Part shown: in pieces, positions 6,219-36,763 of the stretch
Layout: each line of letters begins with the position of its first letter
Position numbering within the stretch: position 1 is the stretch's first letter
Virus record (IMG/VR): IMGVR_UViG_3300025097_000010
Coordinates: 1 to 47,294 of that record
Length of the DNA: 47,294 nt
From: a virus
Reading direction: 5' to 3' (one strand)
Made by a program: the position numbers and the translations under genes
Notes under the pieces: model-generated
Seen by the model: the letters and a program-made list of their open reading frames with translations, nothing else
Told to the model about the DNA's origin: nothing
Databases searched by the model: none

Positions 6219-6399
6219 AGAAAATGATTGGATTAAAATAGAGGATGAAGATGATTATTTCCAGATTAAGAGTATTGACCTTGATTCTGGATACGTTAGG
6301 GTACAAGGGCTAACTGGACATCCATGGACTACTGGAATAAATACTATTGAAAGAGTCATTACACAGGATGAGCTATATGCCTTTTCCAATGAAACCTAA
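6205..6399 (+). CDS. Hypothetical small beta protein, 64 aa
   Basis: I chose ATG 6205 (MHQYKENDWIKIED) behind CGGAGG; an upstream in-frame ATG at 6163 has no ribosome site and lies in the previous gene. The sequence pattern (DWIKIEDEDDYFQIKSIDL then GYVRVQGL) predicts a small SH3-like or KOW-like barrel, often a protein- or nucleic-acid-binding fold. This is inference from pattern only. It overlaps the SET-domain gene by 23 bases. Confidence 0.6.
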   Translation: MHQYKENDWIKIEDEDDYFQIKSIDLDSGYVRVQGLTGHPWTTGINTIERVITQDELYAFSNET

Positions 6400-6718
6400 A
6401 AATACCTATCGTCCTTTGCCTGATGAGTTGACCATTAAGAAATCTAAAATCAATGGTCTTGGCTTATTCGCAGCAGAGGATATTCCTAAGGGTAAAATAT
6501 TTGGACCTTCACATCACAATTTAAGGGGCCATGAAGGCTTAGGTCTCATAAGAACACCGCTTGGTGGATTTATAAATCATAGCCCAAAGCCGAATTGTAG
6601 AATTACAACTAATTCCTGGTTTAGTGGTTGGTCTATAAAAACAACCAAGAAAATAGCAGAAGGAGAGGAATTAACTCTGAAATATGGAACATATAAAATA
6701 CTTAATCCGAATGTCTAG
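6377..6718 (+). CDS. SET-domain protein (lysine methyltransferase-like), 113 aa
   Basis: The product has SET-domain signatures: SKINGLGLFAAEDIPKG near the N-terminus, GFINHSPKPNC (the NHS motif that contacts S-adenosylmethionine) in the middle, and TTKKIAEGEELTLKYGTY near the end, supplying the conserved GEELT and catalytic-type Tyr. Known SET proteins methylate lysines of proteins; some bacteria and phages carry small stand-alone forms. I place the start at ATG 6377 behind AGGATGAG; ATG 6368 or 6389 are alternatives. At about 113 aa it is a minimal SET without pre- or post-SET zinc modules. It opens a protein-modification island with the ubiquitin-like genes. Confidence 0.85.
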   Translation: MPFPMKPKNTYRPLPDELTIKKSKINGLGLFAAEDIPKGKIFGPSHHNLRGHEGLGLIRTPLGGFINHSPKPNCRITTNSWFSGWSIKTTKKIAEGEELTLKYGTYKILNPNV

Positions 6719-6876: not shown

Positions 6877-6895
6877 GGTCAAGCAGAAATTGACC
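6877..6895. promoter_or_regulatory. Inverted repeat upstream of ubiquitin-like gene
   Basis: GGTCAA (6877-6882) and TTGACC (6890-6895) form a perfect inverted repeat around a seven-base spacer. It lies 33 bases before ATG 6928, overlapping a TTGAC that could be a -35 element. It could be an operator or a small RNA hairpin. No clear -10 is seen. Confidence 0.4.
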
Positions 6896-6927: not shown

Positions 6928-7137
6928 ATGGCAAATGTAACAGTAGTTTCCTACCATAATGGTGGGGTTCCACAAGAAATTAGTGGACCATCTCCAGCCG
7001 GTATAGCTCAGGATATGGGCTTATCTCTGGACGGAGTTACCATTCATGTAGATTCCAATGAGGCGGAAGCCAACCAGGAACTACGAGATGGAGACCTTGT
7101 ATCTTTCCAAAAGGATAAGGTTAAATCTGGCGTATAG
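6928..7137 (+). CDS. Ubiquitin/MoaD-like beta-grasp modifier, 69 aa
   Basis: The small size, alternating beta pattern (NVTVVSYHNGG), central GLSLDGVTIHVDSNEAE and the LRDGDLVSF signature match MoaD/ThiS-type beta-grasp proteins, in which L.dGD.V.f precedes a C-terminal Gly. The tail ends KSGV, so removal of one Val would expose a terminal Gly, the residue that E1-like enzymes adenylate. Immediate neighbours are E2-like, JAMM peptidase and E1-like genes, which strongly supports a protein-modifier role over sulfur transfer. The start follows AACAGGAG. A 10-bp hairpin right after the gene may raise its expression over the downstream enzymes. The call rests on pattern and context, not on a database match. 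Confidence 0.7.
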   Translation: MANVTVVSYHNGGVPQEISGPSPAGIAQDMGLSLDGVTIHVDSNEAEANQELRDGDLVSFQKDKVKSGV

Positions 7138-7175
7138 CCAAACACCCGCTTGCCTAGGGTTATAGGGCATAATTT

Positions 7176-7209
7176 AGAGCCTGATGTTTAGCAATAGATA
7201 TCAGGCTCT
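7176..7209 (+). terminator. Terminator or attenuator between modifier and E2 genes
   Basis: AGAGCCTGAT (7176-7185) pairs perfectly with ATCAGGCTCT (7200-7209), followed by TCTTCTTATT. It is probably a partial terminator that lets the small modifier gene be transcribed more than the enzymes behind it. Confidence 0.6.
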
Positions 7210-7227
7210 TCTTATTAGGAGAATATT

Positions 7228-8628
7228 ATGGTTATAGAATTACAAGAAGAGATAAAAGCTTCTCTGTTGGCGACTGTTCCTGCTCTTGGAAGTAGAGAAA
7301 GTGGAAAATTAGATTGGAAAAATGGTGAACTGGAAGAACTTGCAGACCGTCAGGCAAAGCTTTTGATTGAAAAGTGTGATTACATTACAGTAGGCAACCA
7401 TCACACAATTGGAGAAAAGACAATTATGATAAGGTTTGAGAAGATAATCTTAAGGGGAACAAAGAATAATAGATTTTGGGATGTATATTTAATGCTTGAT
7501 AAAGCATCATCAAGATATCCGCAACTTACTTTCCTTACTTTAAAACCTCAATATCATAGTATGGATGATGACGATAGAAATAAATATAAGATTAGAAATT
7601 TCGTTTCAGCTCTTCATCCTCATATATCAAATAGGTCTGGTTGTTTTGGTGAATTTGAAAAGCCGCTAATGGCATTGTTGTCAAGTTTTAATTATGCCGG
7701 TGCTATTATGGTGGTACGTAAGTTCCTTGATACTTGGAACAGGGACAGTGCGTTTTGGGATATGAATACAATGAACTCTATGAGATTGATGTATGTACGG
7801 AATGCTGAAAGTAGAGAGTTCTTTAAAAAGTTGTCTTTTGCTGAAAGAGTGTTTCTAAAAAGAGAAATCTATGACAATACTGGTAGTTCTGGCAGAGATT
7901 TCGATAACTTGGTATCATTTGCTGGAAAAATGAAATGTAATTATAAAGATGGAATTGACTGGACACATTTAGGGCATTTCTATTCTTTGCTTCAACACAT
8001 TGAACATTTTGCAGATAAATATCTTAGAAATCATGAAGATTTGCGTGATATAAATATGCTATTTAAAGACCCAAGAAGACTTGGTTTTATATGGTATAAT
8101 ATCTCAGCGGATGTTGTAGTCAGGAAAAGACTAATATGGTTTGACTGCAGAATAGAAGACTTTAAGGGTAGACTCAAAAAAGCTCTTCTCAATGAAGTTA
8201 CTCCAAAGATGCTTTCAGATTATAGCATTCTTTACACAGAATTTAATACTCAAGACGAGAGAGATAGATTTACAGAGAAAATGATGTCTAAGCTGACGAT
8301 ATATTCTGATGTAAGGTATAGAAGAGTTATGTCTGAATTTTCTATGTCCCAAATTAAGATGACTAAGTTACCATTAGAGTTAAAAGATAGATTTTGCACT
8401 AAAGAGAATGTCGATAATATATTTAATATTGACTTTCTGTCTCAATTAATGAATGAAGCAAGATTGCAATGTTGTGTTATTGCATTAAGGCGGATTCAAA
8501 CAAAAGAAAGGAAACTAAGAAATGAAATTGCAACTCTTAGAGGAGACGCTCTCCAAGCTGAACTATTTTCTGAAGAAGTTCCCGGACAAGGAGTGGAGCG
8601 GCCCAGCGTGGTACAGCCTCAAAGCTGA
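7228..8628 (+). CDS. Putative E2-like (UBC-fold) conjugating protein, 466 aa
   Basis: The N-terminal 180 residues show an E2-like layout: a strand region FWDVYLML (83-90), then YPQLTFLTL (97-105), HPHIS (130-134), GC with candidate catalytic Cys139, and a helix ending in FLDTWN (166-171). Bacterial E2 families carry the same HPHI...G.C order and a tYN-like end. Residues 180-466 are helical and charged, unlike known minimal E2s, and could recognise targets or act like an E3; no RING-type Cys cluster is visible. The gene begins at ATG 7228 behind TTAGGAG and overlaps the JAMM gene by 107 bases in another frame. Function as E2 is inferred from motif order and from the E1, JAMM and modifier neighbours. 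Confidence 0.65.
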   Translation: MVIELQEEIKASLLATVPALGSRESGKLDWKNGELEELADRQAKLLIEKCDYITVGNHHTIGEKTIMIRFEKIILRGTKNNRFWDVYLMLDKASSRYPQLTFLTLKPQYHSMDDDDRNKYKIRNFVSALHPHISNRSGCFGEFEKPLMALLSSFNYAGAIMVVRKFLDTWNRDSAFWDMNTMNSMRLMYVRNAESREFFKKLSFAERVFLKREIYDNTGSSGRDFDNLVSFAGKMKCNYKDGIDWTHLGHFYSLLQHIEHFADKYLRNHEDLRDINMLFKDPRRLGFIWYNISADVVVRKRLIWFDCRIEDFKGRLKKALLNEVTPKMLSDYSILYTEFNTQDERDRFTEKMMSKLTIYSDVRYRRVMSEFSMSQIKMTKLPLELKDRFCTKENVDNIFNIDFLSQLMNEARLQCCVIALRRIQTKERKLRNEIATLRGDALQAELFSEEVPGQGVERPSVVQPQS

Positions 8629-9382
8629 CAAAGCAGGATTCCCTGTAGAATTTACATTAGAAGATTTCCACCCTCTTGACCTTGGTGGACATTCATCTAC
8701 AGAGTGGGAAGCTGACGATTTAGCTAAGATACTAAAGAAGAAACTCAGGAATAGCACTTTAAAGAAATGTTATATGGGTTTAATCCATAGCCATCATACC
8801 ATGGGAGCATTCTTCAGTGGAACTGACACAGATACATTATGTGAAATGGCTCCAATGAAAGGATTCTATCCTAGTCTTATTGTAGCTACTAGTGGTAAAG
8901 CACACTTTGCCTTTGGTTTTAGCTATAAAGACCAATATGGCAGGGCTTCATATTATGAAATTGATGAAGATAAAATCAAATCACCAAGAGCCCGTGGTAA
9001 GAAAGAATGGGTTGACATAGCTAAAGGACTAGAAACGGCTAATACCACTTCTGTTGTCACTACTAAGTATACTGGATACAATGGTTATAACGGTTGGGGT
9101 GGATACCAGGGACAAAGCAATCTCTTTAACCAGAACGATAAGGGAGAATTTGAAATTGGAATGGATGCGAGAAAGAAGGTTCTCCAGACTCCTACATACA
9201 AAAAGCTCACGAAAAAGAATTCAGATAAAGCATTTGACTTCTATGAAGAGTATTGTAATGGTAAAATGAGATATATAGAGCTTCAGGTTAATCTTGAAAA
9301 GATTGGCATCCCAGATGTATGGGACTTTATAAGGGAGGCTAGACATGCAAGCACAGACGCAGCAATCGAATACGGATACTAG
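8522..9382 (+). CDS. JAMM/JAB (MPN+) metallopeptidase, 286 aa
   Basis: All metal-binding elements of a JAMM isopeptidase are present: Glu24 in KEWSG, His89 and His91 in LIHSHH, then Ser99 and Asp102 in FFSGTD, i.e. H.H-x7-S..D. This class cleaves ubiquitin-like proteins from targets or trims their C-termini. Residues about 10-150 form the peptidase. The rest has a Gly/Tyr/Asn-rich linker (around residue 180-200) and a helical C-terminal domain. Start ATG 8522, behind AAAGGAAA, lies 107 bases inside the E2-like gene and is required to include Glu24. It probably matures the KSGV tail of the modifier and reverses conjugation. Confidence 0.9.
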   Translation: MKLQLLEETLSKLNYFLKKFPDKEWSGPAWYSLKADKAGFPVEFTLEDFHPLDLGGHSSTEWEADDLAKILKKKLRNSTLKKCYMGLIHSHHTMGAFFSGTDTDTLCEMAPMKGFYPSLIVATSGKAHFAFGFSYKDQYGRASYYEIDEDKIKSPRARGKKEWVDIAKGLETANTTSVVTTKYTGYNGYNGWGGYQGQSNLFNQNDKGEFEIGMDARKKVLQTPTYKKLTKKNSDKAFDFYEEYCNGKMRYIELQVNLEKIGIPDVWDFIREARHASTDAAIEYGY

Positions 9383-10055
9383 ATTCCTTAGAAATAAGGA
9401 TTTAATTCCCCAGGAAAAGCTTGATGATGTTACAGTAATAGGTTTGGGAGGCATCGGTTCAACCGTTGTCTCCTTACTTGCTATAATGGGCTTTGACTCT
9501 ATTCTTGGATATGATGATGACATACTTGAAGAACATAATTTATCAACATGTATTTACCCACATAAATATATTGGTAAAAGTAAGGCTTTTGCAGCACAAA
9601 AGCTCATGGAAGAGTATTCCTGTCTATCTGTCGGAATTTGTGAAGAACGAAGATGGACCTATAGGGACGGTGTCTTTAAGAATATGATTATATGTCCAGA
9701 CAATATGGAGGTTAGGCGAGATGTATATGACAAATGGGTAAACCAAAGAGACAGAGGCTTTCTTATTGACCTAAGGATGGATGCTTTAGCAATGGAAATT
9801 ATTGTAGTAACCAAAGAACATGATTTCTTTGATGAAACTTGGCTGCCGAGTGCAGAGATTGAAGATGCTCCGTGTACAATGAAACACACAATCTTCACCT
9901 CAAGCATTGTGGCGGGATTTGGTGTTAACCAGGTGTTTAATGTTCTTGCAAATAAGCCGTATTATGCGTATACTTGGATAGGGCTAATGCCCTTCACACG
10001 GAAAACAGAACATCTAATAAAACAAAGAGGTACTAATGACAGTTCCAACAGTTAG
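9345..10055 (+). CDS. E1/ThiF-type adenylating enzyme, 236 aa
   Basis: A Rossmann-type E1 core is clear: an arginine region RFLRNKDL (13-20), nucleotide-binding GLGGIGS (33-39), YDDDILEEHNLS (56-67) and GKSKA (77-81), then PDNMEVRRDVYDKW (118-131) and IDLRMDALAMEI (141-152). Cys177 in APCTMKHTIFTSS is placed like the catalytic Cys that carries the modifier as a thioester. It lacks the extra domains of eukaryotic E1s, as bacterial ThiF, MoeB and E1-like partners do. It follows GGGAGG, overlaps the JAMM gene by 38 bases and the next gene by 20. It should activate the 69-aa modifier by ATP-dependent adenylation. Confidence 0.9.
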   Translation: MQAQTQQSNTDTRFLRNKDLIPQEKLDDVTVIGLGGIGSTVVSLLAIMGFDSILGYDDDILEEHNLSTCIYPHKYIGKSKAFAAQKLMEEYSCLSVGICEERRWTYRDGVFKNMIICPDNMEVRRDVYDKWVNQRDRGFLIDLRMDALAMEIIVVTKEHDFFDETWLPSAEIEDAPCTMKHTIFTSSIVAGFGVNQVFNVLANKPYYAYTWIGLMPFTRKTEHLIKQRGTNDSSNS

Positions 10056-10404
10056 TATCCACGGTAAAAACTATGTTATGGTTAAGGATAGAGTTGTCCT
10101 TTTCTATAATACAAATCCTCGTGGATGCATAAAAACAAAGATAGTGGACTATAAAGATGGCCACTGGATAGTTAAGGCAACTTGCTATCCCGACCCCCAG
10201 GAACTTCCTGAGACATTTTTTACAGGTCATGCACATGAAGTGCAGGGAAGTACACAGATTAACAAAACAAGTGCTTTAGAGAATTGCGAAACTTCGGCTG
10301 TAGGTCGTTGCTTAGCAATGGCTGGTTATGGTGCCGAGGAATCATTTGCTTCTGCAGATGAAGTCGCGAACGCTGTTAATCAGCAAAAGTACGATTCTAA
10401 ATAA
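10036..10404 (+). CDS. ERF/Rad52-like ssDNA-annealing protein (putative), 122 aa
   Basis: The central segment GHAHEVQGSTQINKTSALEN followed by CETSAVGRCLAMAGYG and SASADEV-like FASADEV is a pattern found in ERF-type and related phage single-strand annealing proteins, where EtsAvGRaLa is the conserved core. Such proteins anneal complementary single strands during phage recombination and replication. At 122 aa it is shorter than classic ERF and lacks an extended C-terminal domain. It starts inside the end of the E1 gene and precedes a candidate SSB and the primase-helicase, consistent with a replication-recombination module. Confidence 0.65.
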   Translation: MTVPTVSIHGKNYVMVKDRVVLFYNTNPRGCIKTKIVDYKDGHWIVKATCYPDPQELPETFFTGHAHEVQGSTQINKTSALENCETSAVGRCLAMAGYGAEESFASADEVANAVNQQKYDSK

Positions 10405-16507: not shown

Positions 16508-16990
16508 TTATTTTTTACCTTTAAGTTCATCAAAAAATGGATTATCAGGTCTCCAGCCCTTTACAACACGTTGTCTTTCTTGAGTCTCATCAAGAATTCT
16601 CCGTTCCTGTATCAATTGTTGCTTTCCTCCAGAATATTTAGGAGCATTTATTCCCATTTTTCTTGCATGTCTCTGCATCCATTCAGCAAAATCAGCTTCT
16701 CTAATTCCAAAACTTTGACGTGCTATAGTTGCTTCCTGGATTGAATTCTTAACAAGTTCTGCCTGTAATGGATTTGCAGTTGCAAAGCCACGGGCATTCT
16801 CCGTAAAGCCAGCAAGAACATCGTCTGCAGTACTTACTGTTATTGCATTGCCTTTTGCTACCTTATTAGTAGCCATTTTAATAAGTTTCGCTGGGGTCTT
16901 TCCCTGCCTTGCAGCTACTTCTTCTATCATTGCTATGCCTTGCTTAGACGATGTCCATCCAAGTATTCTCTTTGCTATTGCCATTTTCAC
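16508..16990 (-). CDS. Hypothetical virion-associated protein, 160 aa
   Basis: It starts within the stop of the giant gene (ATGA overlap), so translation is coupled. The protein is helical, Ala- and Gln-rich (NPLQAELVKNSIQEATIARQ) and basic, ending DELKGKK, with no membrane segment or catalytic motif. Coupling to the 3117-aa protein suggests it is packaged with it or assists its incorporation. No family is recognised. Confidence 0.6.
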   Translation of the reverse strand: MKMAIAKRILGWTSSKQGIAMIEEVAARQGKTPAKLIKMATNKVAKGNAITVSTADDVLAGFTENARGFATANPLQAELVKNSIQEATIARQSFGIREADFAEWMQRHARKMGINAPKYSGGKQQLIQERRILDETQERQRVVKGWRPDNPFFDELKGKK

Positions 16991-19900
16991 GATAGAAGTC
17001 CTTTCGGTCTTAATTTTTCTTTCTTTTTTTCTTTACTTAGTTCACGGGAGAACTGCTGGTAGGGAAGACCAGTCATCTTTTCAACTAAACGACTTGGATT
17101 TTCTATTGAACCCTTTATATCTCTAGCAAATCTACCGCCTGGGAACATACTCCAAATGTAATAACCACTTAACTTAGAGTAATCATCTGTAACTATCCCT
17201 TTAAATAAGGGAGGGAGTATCCTAAGGGCTGGGGGCGTTACCATTTGTAGAGGCTGCAAAGGATATGGATATGACCCAAAGAACGCTCTCTCCCTTTCTT
17301 TATCATCTCCAAACATAAGGTCAGCAAAATCCTGGAACCAATTATAAGGAGCTGGCAGTGCATTCTCGAAGAGGGAATACATAAACACGGAACCAAGTGA
17401 TAACATCATGAGGTCTGCAACTGCCAGCCGCTTATATCTTTCAAATTCTTGTGAACCTTCACGCCATCCATATATTTCAGCATTTCTTAATACCTGATTT
17501 CTAAACCTAACAGAGTTCCATGCCCAGAGCTGGAACCTAGTCATTACTTTACCAGTAGTTGTAGCTGCAAACATTGGTCTATGAGGAGCACTATATAAAA
17601 ACTGTGTACCCTTTACCCCCTTCTTGGCAAATTCAACAAGATGAGGATGGTCAAATTTATATGCAGCACCAAAATGGTCTTTTGCCTGTAGATAATGAGA
17701 AACAAATGCACTCCTACGCAATAGACGTTCCGGCTTTCTCATAAAGATAGCTGCTTTATCAAGCATTGATTCAGTTATCCCATGCTTTTTAGCAATACTT
17801 AATAGGGATACATCTTCTAATTCAGGGTCCTTTCTAATCTTTCCCGATGCTTCTTTTATAAATTTCTGCCATCTATGGCTTTTAAGTTGTGGGTTTATAT
17901 CTGCCTCGTACCTCATAAACTCTTCAATCACACCATGGCTATGTACCCAGCTATCCACATCCTTCATACTTTCCCAGTTAGGATTGAGATGTCTTTTTAA
18001 ATATCCAAACTTATGAGAATTCTTAAAATTATCAAAACCAGTTGAAACCAAAGTATGAACTGAACCACCGTAAAGGTTAGCAATGCTGAACTTAGGGTGC
18101 ATGAGAAGTGATGCTAATTGGTACTTTGCTTCAAGATTTCCCCAGGCTGCAAGCTGTCCAGCATCAAACCCTTTCAGCTCTTCTGGTAGTCTTTCATCCT
18201 GTCTTAATCCAAATTTTTTAGCTATACTATTCATCCTTTTTAATACAATCCTTTTTAATACAGTGCTGTCGGCGAACCATGCATAAGGAGTTCCCTTTAT
18301 TTTCATCAAAGGATTATTCATTACGCGAGGAGGTATTTTACTTGGGTATCCCATAGCCCCCTGAACATAAAGGTTGTAGAAATCAACCCATGCTAATGTC
18401 ATATCTGGGTTAGAGTATTTCTTTAGGTTTTTATACATAAAGTCAGTTATTGCTGTCTTTGAGGCTACTTGAGCAACCAGTCTATAGTAAGTATCAAGGA
18501 CATCTTTCATATAACTTTCATATATCTCAGGAGCAACTCTCCAACCTGGGATATGTGCTGACCTAGAGTGCTGACTTCCAACCCTTTGGTTAGCATGGAA
18601 CCATCTAATTCCTTTTTCGCTTTCTTTCTTTCCTTCAGCTATCTCTCTATGAGCAGTGTCTAAATGTTTATAAGTATCTTCCATTGGGTCAACAGACAGC
18701 CAGTCCCCTGTTAATTGCCTATGATGGAAGCTTAATTTCTTTACCTCATCAATCCTATCTTTCTCAGTCATTGAACCATCATTATTAACCAAGTCAAGGG
18801 CTCTCTTAATAGCTTCACTTGCACTTTTCCTATCAAGAGCTTTATGAGGGTAGTATGCATTAAAGGGAAGCTGTTGAGTATCCTGTATCTCTAAGTTCTC
18901 CCTGAGCATTGGTACATCTTTCCTTAATTCTTTTGGAAGCTGACTCATTGCAATTCTTTTTGCTATTTTTCTCATACCATCAATGCCAACTCCAATATCA
19001 AATCTTTTCCCATATTTCCAGCTCTTCTCTAGGTCAGCCATAAATCTTTTACGTAATTTAATTAAGCCATGTAAACTTCCGTCATCTATCTTTATGTACT
19101 CGTTAATTATCTCTTTATCCCCAGTAAGCCATCTATGTATCTTCTCATTCCATTTCTCTACAATTTTACTTACATCATTTGCTATTTCTCTCCCCGTCAT
19201 CTTCTTTCCTACTGGTACACCGTCTTTCCCTGGGAGCATAACAAGAAATTCTTTATGTTTTAAATTCTTCCAGTCAGTTTCTTTTTTTGACTTCCTTAAA
19301 TTATTGTCATAAACACTTTTATAGTAGGTGTATACGCCTGTACCTGCATACTGGTCCTTAAGAACCTTCATCATATTCATTTCATGTCTTCTTATGGCTA
19401 TATCATAAAGAGCATCTGCTTCTTCTATCCCCTTTAGATATGGGTCAAGGTCTGCATCAAGTAGCTTCTTCTCTTCTTCGAATGCCTGTGTAGACTGTTC
19501 CTGCGCTTTGTGAGATACGTTCATTAACTTTTCCATAAAAGAAACGGGAGTACGAACTTTACCTTCAATAATATTACCATACTTGTCCTTATAGGGTCTA
19601 CGTTCATCCATTAAGTTAAGTTCATATCTCAATAAGTCTCTACCAATAGCTTCTGGAAACATATTATAAAACCAACCAGATATTGCAGGCCCTTTCTTCA
19701 CATCGACTGGTCTGAATAACTTCTGGTACCAAGTGCCACCCCTTGCATCCTTAAACCATCTATCAAGAACCCTAAAATCTTCAAGGTCCATCTCGTTGAT
19801 ATCTTTCCCTGGCCTTCCCTGTCTGCCAAGTATTGACCTTACAAATCCATTTAAATCTCTTCCTATATCATTATGGTAATGGTCAAGATGCTCTTTAAGA

Positions 19901-22900
19901 GAAAGATAGACTTTCAAAGCTTCGCCTTTTAATGGAGCATCTTTTAGCCCAACAAAGGGGGCATATTCATCCAGATACTTTTGAGTTCTTTGGTCATAGT
20001 CTGATGCTTCAAATACGCTTCCATGAACCCTGTTACCTTCTTCATCAATAAGCGGGACCCTACGTCCAGCCATTGCAGCTTCTTCTTTAACTCTCTTTTG
20101 TGTTGCCTCACTTGGAATACTTGTTGTATAATTAAATAATGTTTTAAAATCCTCTACAAATCCTTTAACACTTCTATCGCTTACTGCTTTTGATGCAAAT
20201 CCTAAACGATTTACACTTGTGCTATCTACTTTCTTTCGGAGGTTCTCTACTTGCTGCTTCAGTTTCCAAGACTTTGGTATGTTCCCAGTCTTCCTAACCT
20301 TTTTCCATGCCTCCTCAATCTTGGCCAGTTCTTCATGTCTGCCTCTATTCATTGAGCCTAGTAACATAGCATCTAATAAGTCAGCTTCCTGTGCAGTCAT
20401 CTTGGGTACATATTTACCATTCTTAGGGTCTTTTATAAATCTTACTTGACCTAAAGCATTAGTTTCGTGTTCCCATTTCATCTGGTTAATCTTTAGATTG
20501 ATAGTATTCTGGTCAATCAAACTTGAGAAAGGCTTATCAGCTCCAGCTCTTTCCATGTATTCTACAAACTCACGTTCAGCATCAGTGAGGTCTTCTTTTG
20601 TGGGGTCTAATACCTTAGCTCTCCTTCTTGCCTGGAGATAAGAGAACCTTTTTAAGTTATCAGCTACCTCTGAAATCTCTTCAATGGTTGCCTCAGGAAG
20701 CCCTCGTGCAATATCGGCTATCCTAGCTGAGCTTACCATGTCGGACATATCATTTATAATATAATCTTCTGCTTTTCTAAGGATATCCCTAAGAAACCGT
20801 TCTCTCTGTACCATATCTTTAGGGTTATAGTATTCTTTATCTCCTTCTTTGATACTTAATTTATTATAAGCAGCAAAATCTGGGTGTTTAAGAGGGTCTT
20901 CTATCTTAGGGTCTAATAACTTACGAAGACTTGATTCTTCCCAAAGTTTTTTATTAAACACTAAGTCAATATATGCACCTTCCTTTACACGCATTGTACT
21001 CCTGCCAAGCAGGTCTCTGAGCCATTTGAAAGCACCTAAGTTATCTTCATGCCGACCATAAAGGTCACGTAAACGCTCCTTATCTATCCTTGCAAATATA
21101 TTATCTGTCCAGTCAATCCCTTTCATGTCAGCTGCTAGTTTTGGGATTAGGGTATTCCGCATATTCTCAGATAGACCCATTACAGGGTCCGTAACGGCAT
21201 CTACACGGGACTTTATCTCGTCAAAGGTCCATCTACGCCCCTCAGTTAAGTTACGGCCGTATAGGGCAGTATTCACCCCACCAAGCATCTGTGCAAGACC
21301 TTTACGTCTTAAATGATGAGTCAGCTTATACTTATATTGCTTATCAGTGTTCATTTCAGCACTCTTCTTCCTTAAATAAGTACGCTTACCGTCCTTATTC
21401 ACAGAGAAGACTTCCCATTTAAATGCAGTATTAGCAAGCTCGTCAAAGATAATATCCCTGCTTTTTAATCCAGCCTCATCCATAGGGTCAGATGCAAAGG
21501 ATACAATAGCCCTTGCTTTCCTGTTAAAAAGTTTAATATCTTCTGGTTTAGTCCTAGGAACCATCCTTATTATTGCATCAAAAGGATTCCGATTTTTGTC
21601 ATATAATACTGTTTCTGTCTCAACATATCCTTTTTTTGATGCTCTTGCAGCAGCGTATGCTGCACCCAACACGCTTCGTGTAACAACAGCAGGACCAAGT
21701 ATTGCTCTACCAGAAGTGGCTGCATTCGAAAAGAACTGTCTTCTCTGGGGACTATACTGGAGAACCTTCTCAGCGCGTTCTTTCTTTTTCTCCTGAGCAG
21801 GGGTCAATATAGGAGTCTCTGTAAATCTATCCCTAAAGGCAGCCTTGACAGCATTGGAAGACTCACCACCAAATTCATTTACTTGATTAGAATACATATC
21901 CTTCCAGCTTTTCTTAAATCCATTACCAGCTCCACCGCCAAAGAAACCAAACGCCTTATCACCATCAAGGTCTGCTCCCCCCAGAGCATCCATAGCCTCT
22001 TGTCGGAGCAAGATGCCATACCCGCCGACCTTTGTAAATCCACCAAAACGTATTCCCCTGGCTCCAGACATTGAATCCATAGGAACACGAACAATAACTC
22101 CCCTAAGTAGCTCTTCTATCTGAGGACGTATGCCCTTGAATCCGATCTTAGGAACAGGTGGCTTAGTAATTTTTGATATTCTATACTTATCGCCCACTAT
22201 CTTTTCAACTTTATAAGCTCCTTTTTCACCTTTCTTCCCAACTATGCCACCAGCACTAATGATTTTATCAAGATGAACAGCTCCGCTTACATTTCCTCTA
22301 ACAGGAATATCCATTTCAGTAAAAACAGCAGTATCTGTCTTCTTGGCTTTCGTCCATCTTTTAAACATCAAGTCAGCTACATTGATAGCAGATTTATCTC
22401 TCATGACTGGGTCTAAACCACTGCTTTGATACTCCTTAAAGACATCAAATAATGTACGGGTTCCCTTCCAATGCTCACTCCTAAGTAAAAGATTCTTATA
22501 ACCATCGTCAAGGAAGAACAGATTCTTATTTCTTTTCAAACGATGGGTCTGATATAACCCCTCAGGGTCATCTTGTCTTTCTCCACGCAGACCTATATCA
22601 AAAGGTCTCATCCTTGCACTGAAACTATTCCCAACCTCTGGTCTTGTAATTCTATGGACTACATAGTTTCTTATGGCCTGCATTCTATAGTCATGATTAA
22701 ACTTATGGAGCACGCCAAGTAAACTATCTTCGCTGAACTTCATAATTCTTTCGTGAACATTCAGCTGTTCACTAGCTTCTGTCATGGAATCCTTATATTC
22801 TTTGTTAGTCATATCTCCTTCGGAAACCATCTCTTCCATTATCGTTCGGTTAACCTTTTGTATCTTAGCATAAGCTGCATTAGAAAAGGCAACTGCATTA

Positions 22901-25900
22901 CCCTGCTTAATACCACGAAGCAGTTCACTAATCCCAATAGAATCCATATTCTTTATTATATCTGGGAGCATTGATTTATTACCCTCAGGGTTTTTAAGAT
23001 AAGTCCTAAGTGTTTTGTTCGCTTCTTCCTGTCCACCAAAGGCTTCTCTTGATAATGAATTATAGAAGTCCTCAATAACCTCAGGCTTAATATCTTTATG
23101 AGCGAATGGGGTGAGGTTCGATAACATCTGCTTGGGAAGACGCTGCCATTCTAATGATTTAGAGTCAGTCTTCTCAGATAGCACACCTTTAAAATCTTCT
23201 ACTGGTATATAAATCTCTTTACCAGTAACTCTAACTGTTCCGCCATCAGGATTATTCTTATCAGCTGTCCACTTTAATTTCCCTGGTTTTAACAAGCCCC
23301 ACTGTTTAGCTGACGACTTGTTTATTATGAAGTGTGCATTTTTATCTCTTAAAAGTTGCTCTACTGGAGCAGAGCCGGCGTGTGCCATATACTTACCAAG
23401 CAGTGCACCCTGTGGATTACCAACATCGTCTGTCATACGAGATACAATAAATGACTTACTCACATTACCTTCAGTAGGTAAACCCCAGTCAGTATTCTGA
23501 GCATTGATTACATCTTCTCTTCCAAGGATAGCTCCATCACTCCAGAGTGGCCACTGTTTAGCATTATCATCTTCAACTACATATACTTTATACTTACCAT
23601 CAGCTGTTACATCAGATATCTTTTCCTTTATTAAGTCAGGCGTAGAACTGAAGCCACTAGTGAACCATATCTGTTGCCGTTTATTAAATGCTCCAGCACT
23701 GTTTATAAAGCCATCCTTAAGAGTGCTCTCTAGGTTTTTAAACTCTGGAGAGAATCCGTTCATCTCTAGTTCATAAAGGGTATTAGACACATAAGCTTTC
23801 TTAAACATTTCTTCAGCAACTTTAGGGTCTATTTGTCTCATCTCACTTACCCACTCAGCCATGTCCTTATTAAAAGCTTTATCAAATTCTGTAGCTTTTA
23901 TACCATGCTTGATAAATTCTTTACGGATATCAGACAGTTGCTTTTTAGCTGCAAGAGGAGTCTTCTTTATATTAGGATGATACTTTAAAAAGTATTGTCT
24001 CTGAGCATCTCCCTTACCGCCATAATAATAGAAACCCTTTGAGTCCATTACCATAAAGTTCTTTGAATGGAAATCCTTTACCATATTTGATGCAGCTTTC
24101 CTTGCTGCTTTTCTATAATCCTTTGGACCTTCGCCAGATAAAGAAGCGTTTAGATGTTCAGGCTCAACCCTCCGATAATACGTTTCTTCTAAATCAAGCA
24201 GGTCTACTTCCCTATAACCATTTTCAGTCATCTCAACAGCATGGTCAAGTATTGTATAAGAATGCTTACCCTTAGCGACTCCACCTGCCCTTACTAACTC
24301 ATTAAAGCCACTCTTAAATGTTATATTATTAGGTATATCGCCAGCCTCTCTAAAGAACTTTGCCATTTCTTTTGGAGCATATCCACTAAGCCCTTTACCA
24401 ATACCGTAGGGTATAATAAATTCTTTATTTGGGTTCTCTTCAGCAAAATTATAAAGTTCTTTTATCTCAGATTTAATCTCCTCTGGCGAACTAGATTTTG
24501 GAACATCATAATGTTTTTTTGTTACTATACCATATGATTTGCCCTGTAATCCTCTTGGCTGTCCTTGGACAGCACCAAATTTTTGCTTTGCGTGTAAAGC
24601 AGAACCTCTCCCATGGGTAGGTTTCCCTCCCTTAGAGCTTCCTTCGTTACTTCCAAAAACAAATATTTGATTGGGAGCTAAAGTTCTCACAGTCCCTTTA
24701 TATGTTTTTTCACCTCCAGGTTCAGCAGGAACAAGACCTTCACGGTCAGCTGCAGTCCCGTATACTTCATCTACAAGCTTAGGTTCTTCAAGAAGGAGTT
24801 TCTCATTACCAACATCATTACGGTCATCACCAGCAAGTATCTCTCTCATCTCTCCATCTCTAACAGTAAGCATTGGTACACGCCTTGCTTTAATTAAGCG
24901 TTCACCACGTTGTCTCCACCAATTTACATTCTTTTCGTCAAGGCTTATTTCATACTTTTTCTGGAGCCAGTCAACCATCTCTTGCGATGGGTTCTTTTTT
25001 GTTTTCCTTCCTTCAGCAGATAATGCATCCCATTGGTTCTCTACATCTAAGGTTGTTTGAGCACGCTCTCCTTCAGTCTCCCACTTGCCTTCCATATTCC
25101 TCTGAACCCAGCCTTCAGTCTTCTTTGTGAAGACCAAGTCCTCAAGAACTGGATTGCCAACATCGGCCTCATCCCTTGAGTGGTCTCCCTTTGGCTCCTT
25201 ATCTTGCCGCATAATCAATTCAAAGGCTTCATCCTTTTCAAGTAACTTCTCTGAGAGAGGAGATATCTCTTCCCCATATTTTGAATACTTAGGTATACGG
25301 TCTATAATTTCTTTAGCTTTTACTTGAGCTTCCTCAATTGGGATGCCACTATATTCAGAAAGTTTATATGCTAAAGCACTTACCTGTTCAGTCTTCCCAC
25401 GAATATGGCTAACTTCTTCTTTAATAAAGTTTTGAGTCTTACCATCGAGCTCTTCCCAACCCTTGACTATCTCTGGGTCACGAGTACCTTTCTTAAACAT
25501 CTTATTAATATGCCCAAAGCCCTGTCTCCTATGGTAAGGCATTTCCTTAACTCCAAAGTAAGCACCAAGGAGATATTCATATACTTGCTCAGGAGTTGTA
25601 GCTCCCTGCATAGTAGAATGGAGACCAGTGTATAGAGAAGAAGAAAGTCCTCGCAATACCTTATCGCCAACCTTACTCCCTGTCTGGACAATATTACCAA
25701 TACCTCTAAATACAGCACCAGTCTCTGCACCACCAATAAATGCTCTCATCATTTCATCAACCCCACCTTGCCACGCACCTACTGAACTGGCTACACCAAG
25801 ATGGAATGCTCCCTTTGCTAAGTCCTGTACTACACCTTTTTGTAGAAATTCAGTGGCTGTACCAGTAGCACCTGCTCTAGCCGTAACTCCTTTAGCTAAA

Positions 25901-26340
25901 GTACTTGAAGCAATCTTTGAAACCTTTTTAGTAAGTAGGTTAGCAGCCAACATAGGTACTGACTTACCCTGTAGTTTCTTTAGTCCCATTGCAAGCTTAC
26001 TCATACGAGCAATCTTCATTGGAATAGGAACAAACCCTACGAAACCAGCAAGATGTCCAACATTACGGGCGATACTCTCCCACTCATCTTTCGGAGCTCT
26101 TCCCATATTAAAAGTACTAAACCCAGAGCCAAAACCAGCTCCAAGCTGACCTATTAGTCCTGAGATTCTTCCTTGGTGGGCTCCTTCGTCCTCTGCGAAT
26201 GGTATATGATAAAACTCAGCATGGTTCTCAAGCATCTTTAACTCTTCGTCAGAGATACCTTCAGGTTTCTGCTGATACAGCTTTATATAATTCTGTACTG
26301 TAGCCTGGTCTAAGGTAGGCTGAAATCCCTGTGGGACCAT
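16987..26340 (-). CDS. Giant internal virion protein with RNA polymerase-like double-psi-barrel motifs, 3117 aa
   Basis: The largest gene of the window, about 20% of it. Residues 60-250 are Gly/Ala-rich and amphipathic. A macro-like domain lies near 545-680 (IFVFGSN at 559-565, HGRGSALHAKQKFGA after it). SDGAIL (934-939), GKYM with Lys983, RVP (Arg1418), a GILL strand, and GADLDGD (1455-1461) follow. RNA polymerase beta prime has R-x-P about 36 residues before NADFDGD; here it is about 40, and the two-Asp-Gly-Asp triad D1457, D1459, D1461 is intact. RdRp and YonO-type enzymes also show SDG before GsDLDGD. Near the C-terminus is a membrane-like segment (LMMLSLGSVFMYSLF). I infer a virion RNA polymerase ejected with the DNA, functionally like N4 vRNAP but of a different fold. 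Remaining stretches are unclassified. Confidence 0.8.
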   Translation of the reverse strand: MVPQGFQPTLDQATVQNYIKLYQQKPEGISDEELKMLENHAEFYHIPFAEDEGAHQGRISGLIGQLGAGFGSGFSTFNMGRAPKDEWESIARNVGHLAGFVGFVPIPMKIARMSKLAMGLKKLQGKSVPMLAANLLTKKVSKIASSTLAKGVTARAGATGTATEFLQKGVVQDLAKGAFHLGVASSVGAWQGGVDEMMRAFIGGAETGAVFRGIGNIVQTGSKVGDKVLRGLSSSLYTGLHSTMQGATTPEQVYEYLLGAYFGVKEMPYHRRQGFGHINKMFKKGTRDPEIVKGWEELDGKTQNFIKEEVSHIRGKTEQVSALAYKLSEYSGIPIEEAQVKAKEIIDRIPKYSKYGEEISPLSEKLLEKDEAFELIMRQDKEPKGDHSRDEADVGNPVLEDLVFTKKTEGWVQRNMEGKWETEGERAQTTLDVENQWDALSAEGRKTKKNPSQEMVDWLQKKYEISLDEKNVNWWRQRGERLIKARRVPMLTVRDGEMREILAGDDRNDVGNEKLLLEEPKLVDEVYGTAADREGLVPAEPGGEKTYKGTVRTLAPNQIFVFGSNEGSSKGGKPTHGRGSALHAKQKFGAVQGQPRGLQGKSYGIVTKKHYDVPKSSSPEEIKSEIKELYNFAEENPNKEFIIPYGIGKGLSGYAPKEMAKFFREAGDIPNNITFKSGFNELVRAGGVAKGKHSYTILDHAVEMTENGYREVDLLDLEETYYRRVEPEHLNASLSGEGPKDYRKAARKAASNMVKDFHSKNFMVMDSKGFYYYGGKGDAQRQYFLKYHPNIKKTPLAAKKQLSDIRKEFIKHGIKATEFDKAFNKDMAEWVSEMRQIDPKVAEEMFKKAYVSNTLYELEMNGFSPEFKNLESTLKDGFINSAGAFNKRQQIWFTSGFSSTPDLIKEKISDVTADGKYKVYVVEDDNAKQWPLWSDGAILGREDVINAQNTDWGLPTEGNVSKSFIVSRMTDDVGNPQGALLGKYMAHAGSAPVEQLLRDKNAHFIINKSSAKQWGLLKPGKLKWTADKNNPDGGTVRVTGKEIYIPVEDFKGVLSEKTDSKSLEWQRLPKQMLSNLTPFAHKDIKPEVIEDFYNSLSREAFGGQEEANKTLRTYLKNPEGNKSMLPDIIKNMDSIGISELLRGIKQGNAVAFSNAAYAKIQKVNRTIMEEMVSEGDMTNKEYKDSMTEASEQLNVHERIMKFSEDSLLGVLHKFNHDYRMQAIRNYVVHRITRPEVGNSFSARMRPFDIGLRGERQDDPEGLYQTHRLKRNKNLFFLDDGYKNLLLRSEHWKGTRTLFDVFKEYQSSGLDPVMRDKSAINVADLMFKRWTKAKKTDTAVFTEMDIPVRGNVSGAVHLDKIISAGGIVGKKGEKGAYKVEKIVGDKYRISKITKPPVPKIGFKGIRPQIEELLRGVIVRVPMDSMSGARGIRFGGFTKVGGYGILLRQEAMDALGGADLDGDKAFGFFGGGAGNGFKKSWKDMYSNQVNEFGGESSNAVKAAFRDRFTETPILTPAQEKKKERAEKVLQYSPQRRQFFSNAATSGRAILGPAVVTRSVLGAAYAAARASKKGYVETETVLYDKNRNPFDAIIRMVPRTKPEDIKLFNRKARAIVSFASDPMDEAGLKSRDIIFDELANTAFKWEVFSVNKDGKRTYLRKKSAEMNTDKQYKYKLTHHLRRKGLAQMLGGVNTALYGRNLTEGRRWTFDEIKSRVDAVTDPVMGLSENMRNTLIPKLAADMKGIDWTDNIFARIDKERLRDLYGRHEDNLGAFKWLRDLLGRSTMRVKEGAYIDLVFNKKLWEESSLRKLLDPKIEDPLKHPDFAAYNKLSIKEGDKEYYNPKDMVQRERFLRDILRKAEDYIINDMSDMVSSARIADIARGLPEATIEEISEVADNLKRFSYLQARRRAKVLDPTKEDLTDAEREFVEYMERAGADKPFSSLIDQNTINLKINQMKWEHETNALGQVRFIKDPKNGKYVPKMTAQEADLLDAMLLGSMNRGRHEELAKIEEAWKKVRKTGNIPKSWKLKQQVENLRKKVDSTSVNRLGFASKAVSDRSVKGFVEDFKTLFNYTTSIPSEATQKRVKEEAAMAGRRVPLIDEEGNRVHGSVFEASDYDQRTQKYLDEYAPFVGLKDAPLKGEALKVYLSLKEHLDHYHNDIGRDLNGFVRSILGRQGRPGKDINEMDLEDFRVLDRWFKDARGGTWYQKLFRPVDVKKGPAISGWFYNMFPEAIGRDLLRYELNLMDERRPYKDKYGNIIEGKVRTPVSFMEKLMNVSHKAQEQSTQAFEEEKKLLDADLDPYLKGIEEADALYDIAIRRHEMNMMKVLKDQYAGTGVYTYYKSVYDNNLRKSKKETDWKNLKHKEFLVMLPGKDGVPVGKKMTGREIANDVSKIVEKWNEKIHRWLTGDKEIINEYIKIDDGSLHGLIKLRKRFMADLEKSWKYGKRFDIGVGIDGMRKIAKRIAMSQLPKELRKDVPMLRENLEIQDTQQLPFNAYYPHKALDRKSASEAIKRALDLVNNDGSMTEKDRIDEVKKLSFHHRQLTGDWLSVDPMEDTYKHLDTAHREIAEGKKESEKGIRWFHANQRVGSQHSRSAHIPGWRVAPEIYESYMKDVLDTYYRLVAQVASKTAITDFMYKNLKKYSNPDMTLAWVDFYNLYVQGAMGYPSKIPPRVMNNPLMKIKGTPYAWFADSTVLKRIVLKRMNSIAKKFGLRQDERLPEELKGFDAGQLAAWGNLEAKYQLASLLMHPKFSIANLYGGSVHTLVSTGFDNFKNSHKFGYLKRHLNPNWESMKDVDSWVHSHGVIEEFMRYEADINPQLKSHRWQKFIKEASGKIRKDPELEDVSLLSIAKKHGITESMLDKAAIFMRKPERLLRRSAFVSHYLQAKDHFGAAYKFDHPHLVEFAKKGVKGTQFLYSAPHRPMFAATTTGKVMTRFQLWAWNSVRFRNQVLRNAEIYGWREGSQEFERYKRLAVADLMMLSLGSVFMYSLFENALPAPYNWFQDFADLMFGDDKERERAFFGSYPYPLQPLQMVTPPALRILPPLFKGIVTDDYSKLSGYYIWSMFPGGRFARDIKGSIENPSRLVEKMTGLPYQQFSRELSKEKKKEKLRPKGLLS

Positions 26341-35956: not shown

Positions 35957-36763
35957 TTAGGTAATAGCCCAGTATTCCTTACTAACATTCCAAGGTATTC
36001 CAAAAGTATCCCATCTATCGCTACTCGCATACGAAGGTGGAATCGTAATGGAAATACCACTCATCGCTTGAGACGCCATAGAAATCTCCCCATCATCTTT
36101 TACACAACGCACACTATGACCGCTACCCAAACCTCCAGAACCAGCATGTATATCTATATGGTCATGCATAATCTGACGACGATGGCTCTGTATAGTCGCC
36201 CAACTCACCTCAGTCGTAGTCCAAAAATATGCATCCGTATTTATATTGTGAAAAGTACCCCACACATGCTCTCGATATCCAGCAGGAAGAGCATTGAATC
36301 CACTTGTCCCAAAGCTTGCATCACTCTCTAAATCAGCATCAGTCCACAAATCAGCCCTACCTGCAAGCTTACTACCTTCATTTGTGCCTCTCTCGTAACC
36401 TCCTTGCCAAAGGTCTGAATCTGGAATACTCATACCAAGATATCTTTCTAGTACCTTAAAATCGTCTAAAGTTGGCACTCTCCAGCCTGAAGGAGCAAGT
36501 TTACCTGTCTCTACAGCATATCTATTATACAGATATCCATAAATATCTGAATTGTCAGTGTTATTATTATATTCACATCTTGCAGCAGTACCTGAGTCTT
36601 TCCAGGCAGTATTATCTGTTATCCGCTCTATACTAGTCCCATCATTATTCTTAGCTGATTTTAGATTTTCTGCCATCCACACCTGAGTACCTATTTTCAC
36701 AGTTGAATAGACATTACCATTAGCATCTATACATGAATTCTGGTCAATGCTTACTTCATTCAT
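35957..36763 (-). CDS. FISUMP-domain (Fib_succ_major) appendage protein, 268 aa
   Basis: Residues about 13-225 carry the FISUMP signature: VKIGTQVWMAENLKSAKNND, YGYLYNRYAV, PSGWRVPTLDDFKVLERYLG, GSKLAGR, GFNALPAGYRE, FWTTTE and HSVRCVKD. The domain is known from surface and secreted proteins of Fibrobacter, Bacteroidetes and relatives and is thought to have a C-type-lectin-like fold. A C-terminal 40-residue extension is phage-specific. In a connector/tail operon it is a good candidate receptor-binding or decoration protein acquired from the host lineage. No reverse transcriptase or template repeat was seen, so I do not infer diversification. Confidence 0.8.
   Translation of the reverse strand: MNEVSIDQNSCIDANGNVYSTVKIGTQVWMAENLKSAKNNDGTSIERITDNTAWKDSGTAARCEYNNNTDNSDIYGYLYNRYAVETGKLAPSGWRVPTLDDFKVLERYLGMSIPDSDLWQGGYERGTNEGSKLAGRADLWTDADLESDASFGTSGFNALPAGYREHVWGTFHNINTDAYFWTTTEVSWATIQSHRRQIMHDHIDIHAGSGGLGSGHSVRCVKDDGEISMASQAMSGISITIPPSYASSDRWDTFGIPWNVSKEYWAIT

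Follow-up and report, generated by a model that had tools for sequence, protein, structure and literature searches.

A marine phage DNA of 47,294 nucleotides (positions 1 to 47,294 of IMG/VR record IMGVR_UViG_3300025097_000010; hereafter the window) carries four consecutive plus-strand genes at 6928-10055 that are predicted to encode a complete ubiquitin-like (Ubl) conjugation pathway. In the list of open reading frames (ORFs), the order is a Ubl modifier (6928..7137, 69 aa), a putative E2-like conjugating protein (7228..8628, 466 aa), a predicted JAMM/JAB isopeptidase (8522..9382, 286 aa), and a predicted E1/ThiF-type activating enzyme (9345..10055, 236 aa). A preliminary description based on the letters alone had read these genes as such a pathway in a replication region. 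The four genes and all residues it named were found as described, and the cassette lies beside replication genes. The pathway reading is supported by ThiF and Prok-JAB matches above the cut-offs, a β-grasp model of the modifier, conserved active sites, and constant gene order. We consider it rather likely that the four genes constitute a self-sufficient, reversible Ubl conjugation cycle brought by the phage, with targets most likely at the viral replication centre.

The E1 scores 46.1 bits against Pfam ThiF (cut-off 28.1), and the JAMM protein scores 25.1 bits against Prok-JAB (cut-off 25), barely above the threshold. The E1 has a GLGGIGS nucleotide motif, and its Cys177 (codon at 9873-9875, plus strand) is kept in 65/65 sequences. 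The JAMM protein carries E24, H89, H91, S99, and D102; together with S26, G27, and S90, these residues are kept in 67/67 sequences. Such conservation of both enzymes is far beyond chance. The JAMM profile matches CSN5 (E 0.002), and the E1 profile matches UBA5, MccB, MoeB, Uba1, and Cap2. In a tree of E1 sequences, the window, crAss, and GG (sister) types form three well-supported groups. The GG-type JAMM passes the Pfam JAB cut-off, and some E1s of the crAss type and of Flavobacterium phages have an N-terminal extension.

The Ubl and E2 were identified because of the β-grasp model, the active-site conservation, and the invariant gene order. The AlphaFold model of the window Ubl is a β-grasp with a flexible tail (mean pLDDT 87.5), as had been expected of the 69-aa product. 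Its best Foldseek matches among solved structures include TtuB (TM 0.74), Caldiarchaeum ubiquitin (0.65), and SUMO. P23, S67, and G68 are invariant in the 22 relatives aligned. The window Ubl ends in KVKSGV, in which the predicted reactive Gly68 (codon at 7129-7131, plus strand) is followed by Val69, while the Ubls of L005 and L008 (L numbers denote loci) terminate exactly at Gly68. Window-type Ubls have 0-9 residues after SG, most often one. The sister-type Ubl has a di-glycine end, mostly ...NNKVGG*, and one Ubl of this type scores 22.6 bits against Pfam ThiS (cut-off 22.5). Because relatives terminate exactly at this glycine or end in GG, the sequences mark Gly68 as the probable reactive end of the modifier. 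The Ubls of crAss-like and Flavobacterium phages have a similar K..SG followed by 64-213 more residues. The crAss-type extensions after KSG (e.g., L014 3929-4606) often contain a segment of the form GKNFTQ.ST.DL..FL; judged by eye, it is similar to small nucleic-acid-binding motifs of the helix-extension-helix kind, and there is no Pfam match.

The E2-like protein has HPHI at 130-133 (HPH codons at 7615-7623, plus strand) and Cys139 (7642-7644) nine residues after the first His. Eukaryotic E2s have an HPN...C active-site layout, which the window-type HPHI..C resembles in sequence. Only H130, P131, H132, C139, and G141 are invariant among 33 sequences (21% mean identity). The sister-type protein at this position mostly has HPYI...CL and aligns to the window type there (hhalign probability 70%, E 4e-5). 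The crAss-type E2 has HSH...C.G plus an insertion before the Cys, and its profiles align with the window type at the HPH..C site with P 4e-4 to 6e-4 and a low probability of 29-36%. Three divergent E2 types align at one HxH/HPY..C site. While the preliminary description called the E2-like protein unusually long, 466 aa is ordinary for a family of roughly 370-690 aa. Its AlphaFold model is fair over residues 1-220, which form helices, a run of strands, the HPH/Cys loop, and then helices; the remainder is poor. In a fold search against viral models, matches 2 and 3 were crAss-like phage proteins, and the third was a 435-aa protein of cr128_1. A length of 435 aa is likewise found for the product of the cr128_1 gene between Ubl and JAMM (QOR59667.1), the two proteins being linked by organism and length, not by accession. 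The crAss-type E2 gene of L072 (3774-5032) is split into two overlapping frames, reflecting either a sequencing error or a broken gene.

A JAMM profile search of IMG/VR found 134 relatives, of which 80 were kept. After removal of duplicate fetches, 87 loci were counted, including 65 with enough upstream and 79 with enough downstream sequence. The Ubl gene is upstream in 65/65 loci (a few read by eye), and relatives carrying only subsets without the modifier, which would have spoken against the pathway, were not seen. The E2 gene is present in all 65, in two of them by position (L068 and L070, the former read by eye, HPHSSSGNDLCMG), and the E1 gene is downstream in 79/79. The order Ubl-E2-JAMM-E1 is constant across viral loci, with occasional insertions between JAMM and E1: a gene in L086 (6315-7130) that by eye is homing-endonuclease-like, and a gene for a 148-aa protein in L060 (5936-6379) and L061 (5941-6384). 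The same profile gave a single match (L095) in 84,980 prokaryotic genomes, a scan that needs short exact peptides, could miss distant bacterial relatives, and did not seek the GG type. L095 is a 4.6-kb contig of a Bacilli metagenome-assembled genome that bears the complete cassette and may be of phage origin, binned together with its host. A plasmid search with the crAss E1 returned mostly generic ThiF proteins. Chance or misassembly was ruled out, as the cassette recurs in many independent contigs and isolate genomes.

Among annotated phages, 45 records with Ubl and E2 belong to crAss-like phages, Steigviridae and close kin, including crAss001, DAC15, and DAC17. A further 29 records of Flavobacterium (Flavobacterium psychrophilum) phages have JAMM and E1, with the full order seen in FpV4. 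The genes gp76-gp79 of crAss001 and their Steigviridae and Flavobacterium phage equivalents comprise the four gene types in the window's order, with an E2/JAMM overlap and adjoining primase and UDG genes, and their families correspond to PHROGs 15560, 15310, 21448/16107, and 15670. The window and crAss001-type proteins share 33-37% identity in JAMM and 28-34% in E1. Their Ubls and E2s give no BLAST match, and weak profile alignments put SG on SG and HPH..C.G on HSH..C.G. The crAss001 type differs from the window in the 64-213 aa after SG of its Ubl, in the HSH and insertion of its E2, and in some longer E1s. Nucleotide searches of phages with the window DNA, tblastn of the window E2 against phages, and a comparison of the GG-type JAMM with annotated phages gave no match. 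In the records read, these genes are labelled as a thiamine biosynthesis protein, a metalloprotease domain, or simply hypothetical; "ThiF family protein" and "E1 enzyme family protein" occur in one record each. The cassette goes unmentioned in the main text of the paper describing the isolation of crAss001, as in those of a structural atlas of this phage and of a survey of crAss genomes. No phage-encoded or crAss-like Ubl system was found in the open-access literature, which is weak evidence since most subscription papers lie outside it.

The cassette is core in the window's lineage and not a patchy accessory. The major capsid protein of the window shares 51-64% identity with those of seven other cassette-bearing marine records. 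Among records picked by this capsid protein alone, all metagenomic, E1 is present in 8/8 of at least 46 kb and in 10/10 including the primase-helicase. In those whose region was read, the gene order is small Gly-ending protein, E2-position protein, JAMM, and E1. The same capsid lineage also includes the sister cassette (L192-L201, records G121-G135), which has the NNKVGG* end and HPYI..CL and is followed by a Sak4-like ATPase gene. The crAss-type and Flavobacterium records tested gave no match to the window-type capsid protein, so the cassette is shared by phage groups whose structural genes are unrelated. Cassettes of these unrelated groups adjoin primase, UDG, or Sak4-like genes. The ratios of nonsynonymous to synonymous substitution rates (dN/dS) between the window and L006/L008 are 0.12 for Ubl, 0.31-0.32 for E2, 0.11-0.14 for JAMM, and 0.10-0.18 for E1, indicating purifying selection on all four genes, with E2 the least constrained.

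We propose a conjugation cycle predicted from these sequences. The JAMM protein would trim residues beyond Gly68 where present. The E1 would adenylate the Gly68 carboxylate with ATP and take the modifier on Cys177, from which it would pass to Cys139 of the E2. The E2 would then attach the modifier to amines of target proteins, probably choosing them by its variable, helical C-terminal part. The weaker constraint and variable length of the E2 suggest that it carries target choice, and no E3 gene was seen with the cassette. Finally, the JAMM protein would strip the modifier off the targets again; its persistence where the Ubl needs no trimming favours such a deconjugating role as well. The targets would be phage or host proteins at the viral replication centre, where the tag would regulate replication or host takeover. 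This location is most likely because the cassette is core in the lineage and lies beside replication and recombination genes in unrelated phages. More tentatively, and on balance doubtfully, the pathway may be a virus-specific part of the core replication machinery in unrelated phages (marine, human-gut crAss-like, and Flavobacterium phages), using a eukaryote-like HPN-type E2 to modify replication or recombination proteins much as SUMO and ubiquitin modify PCNA in eukaryotes.

The most serious alternative, though we hold it to be unlikely, is host takeover or counter-defence, in which the cascade tags host proteins, such as components of Bil, CBASS, or other immunity, or the JAMM protein strips them, to disable them. 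That bacteria use Ubl cascades against phages is established (PMC10097602, PMC11354881), and the E2 is the fastest-evolving component, as expected of a host-facing part. However, the cassette is core and sits in the replication module, not in a variable accessory region, and a whole cascade exceeds what blocking a defence needs. A purely anti-defence role is less likely than the preliminary description implied, because the cassette belongs to the lineage core rather than to a patchy accessory set.

Several results weigh against a conjugation cycle acting in replication. The placement argument favours a replication role through gene position only. In Crassvirales, the cassette appears from the searched sequences to be confined to one clade and not required across the order, and many other crAss-like phages with a related primase gave no cassette match. 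Neither the window Ubl nor the window E2 has a significant match in Pfam, NCBIfam, PADLOC, or PHROG; among the family assignments looked for, ThiF and Prok-JAB were matched, but Prok-E2 and the models for the Ubl were not. A search for bacterial Prok-E2_D proteins for profile comparison yielded one match, with internal stops, in 100 genomes. A PDB fold search with the E2 model gave nothing significant, with the GCN2 RWD domain and NCE2 (UBC-type) only at E > 1. The missing family and PDB matches would suit a 466-aa protein that is not an E2 at all, such as a scaffold or an enzyme of another kind whose His/Cys site is, e.g., a metal site. We regard this as improbable, since the predicted helix-strands-HPH-Cys-helix order and the HPHI..C spacing fit the E2 layout, the sister type has HPYI..CL, and the viral fold matches include the protein at the E2 position of a crAss-like phage. 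The UBC fold proposed earlier is therefore supported, short of proof, by the order of its elements and the viral fold match, while no solved UBC structure is matched significantly.

It is still less probable that capsid or tail proteins receive the Ubl, either those of competing phages for rival exclusion or those of the phage's own virion. Bil acts on phage tails, as cited in PMC12135933, but the cassette genes sit with replication rather than structural genes, and the text of the crAss001 structural atlas names none of gp75-gp79, nor ubiquitin. A sulfur relay, in which a ThiS/MoaD-type carrier and a ThiF activator form a thiocarboxylate for cofactor or tRNA thiolation with JAMM processing, accords with the superfamilies of E1 and Ubl, which include ThiF and ThiS, and with the thiamine biosynthesis labels, but is very improbable: the cassette never lacks its dedicated E2, whose HPH..C site is invariant, no gene for thiazole, molybdopterin, or tRNA thiolation was seen adjoining it, and many modifiers end in SG, not GG.

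Other features of the locus concern the expression of the cassette. A terminator-like hairpin (AGAGCCTGAT..ATCAGGCTCT, 7176..7209, plus strand) between the Ubl and E2 genes is kept in L003 and L005-L008; this conserved separation suggests that the modifier is made in larger amounts than the enzymes. In the window, the E2 and JAMM genes share 107 nt, and their stop-to-stop frames also overlap in nearly all relatives, suggesting linked translation. Upstream of the Ubl gene, an inverted repeat, GGTCAA-N7-TTGACC, was read from the sequence at 6877..6895 (plus strand). In L008, both arms are altered together to GGCCAA..TTGGCC (T:A to C:G), which is one compensatory pair only, and the repeat is possibly an RNA hairpin or an operator.

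Just upstream of the Ubl gene, at 6347-6718 (plus strand), a 123-aa SET-domain protein (Pfam SET, 45.4 bits) represents a eukaryote-like lysine methyltransferase domain within the same phage. The neighbouring gene at 10036-10404, initially called ERF-like, has no ERF match in Pfam or PHROGs. Amid the structural genes, a protein at 35957-36763 (minus strand) has a Fib_succ_major domain (137 bits). Proteins with this domain are frequent in Bacteroidota and Fibrobacterota, which gives a hint of the host. A 3117-aa protein at 16987-26340 (minus strand) has no Pfam match at E 0.01.

What is known of Ubl cascades in bacteria concerns chiefly host defence. In the present case, an entire cascade belongs to viruses, apparently as part of their core gene content, and is almost absent from prokaryotic genomes. 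With the four-gene set also present in other viruses, a ubiquitin-like pathway appears to be a standard part of replication in some phages. The cassette has been unrecognised in cultured model phages, namely crAss001 (Bacteroides intestinalis), DAC15 (B. thetaiotaomicron), and FpV4 (Flavobacterium psychrophilum), in which the substrate can be sought at once. Functions are suggested for PHROG families listed as unknown, and the HPN-like His before the Cys in the E2 bears on the evolution of E2 active sites.

Several known systems share parts of this cassette. The preliminary description had placed it close to Bil and PRTRC, a kinship that is not supported: the models score far below their cut-offs, the E2 active-site layout is different, and the E1 has a single domain. 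Bil/Bub (BilABCD) likewise has separate Ubl, E2, JAMM, and E1 genes in one set, and its JAMM protein exposes the C-terminal glycine of the Ubl (PMC11354881). However, BilA has two Ubl domains, BilB has a CEHH motif with His after Cys, and BilD has inactive and active adenylation domains (PMC11354881), while the window has one Ubl domain, His before Cys, and a single 236-aa E1. The window E2 has no His in the 30 residues after Cys139, and the BilD model reaches 16.1 bits over only part of the E1. Furthermore, Bil is a bacterial defence, and the window set consists of phage genes. The PRTRC (type 6d) neighbourhood has the same parts list, with a Ubl ending in Gly, E2-like, JAB, and E1-like genes (PMC1779556). 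In type 6d, the E2 has no upstream His but a conserved downstream one, the JAB carries an additional N-terminal domain, and an α-helical protein is added (PMC1779556). The upstream HPH is invariant in 33 window-type sequences, unlike the 6d E2; PRTRC_A scores 13.3 of 101.8 bits and PRTRC_ThiF 22.7 of 144.75 bits, with no PRTRC B or C match. The lambdoid tail-assembly proteins TAPI/TAPK are a phage-encoded Ubl and JAB peptidase (PMC1779556), which differ from the window set in lacking E1 and E2 and lying among tail genes. CBASS Cap2/Cap3 combine E1/E2 chemistry with a JAB peptidase (PMC10097602); the E1 profile matches Cap2, which is an E2-E1 fusion that conjugates the cGAS-like enzyme, while the window set has separate genes and a dedicated Ubl. 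The cassette is best described as a predicted phage-specific variant of the prokaryotic Ubl conjugation systems, outside both Bil and PRTRC.

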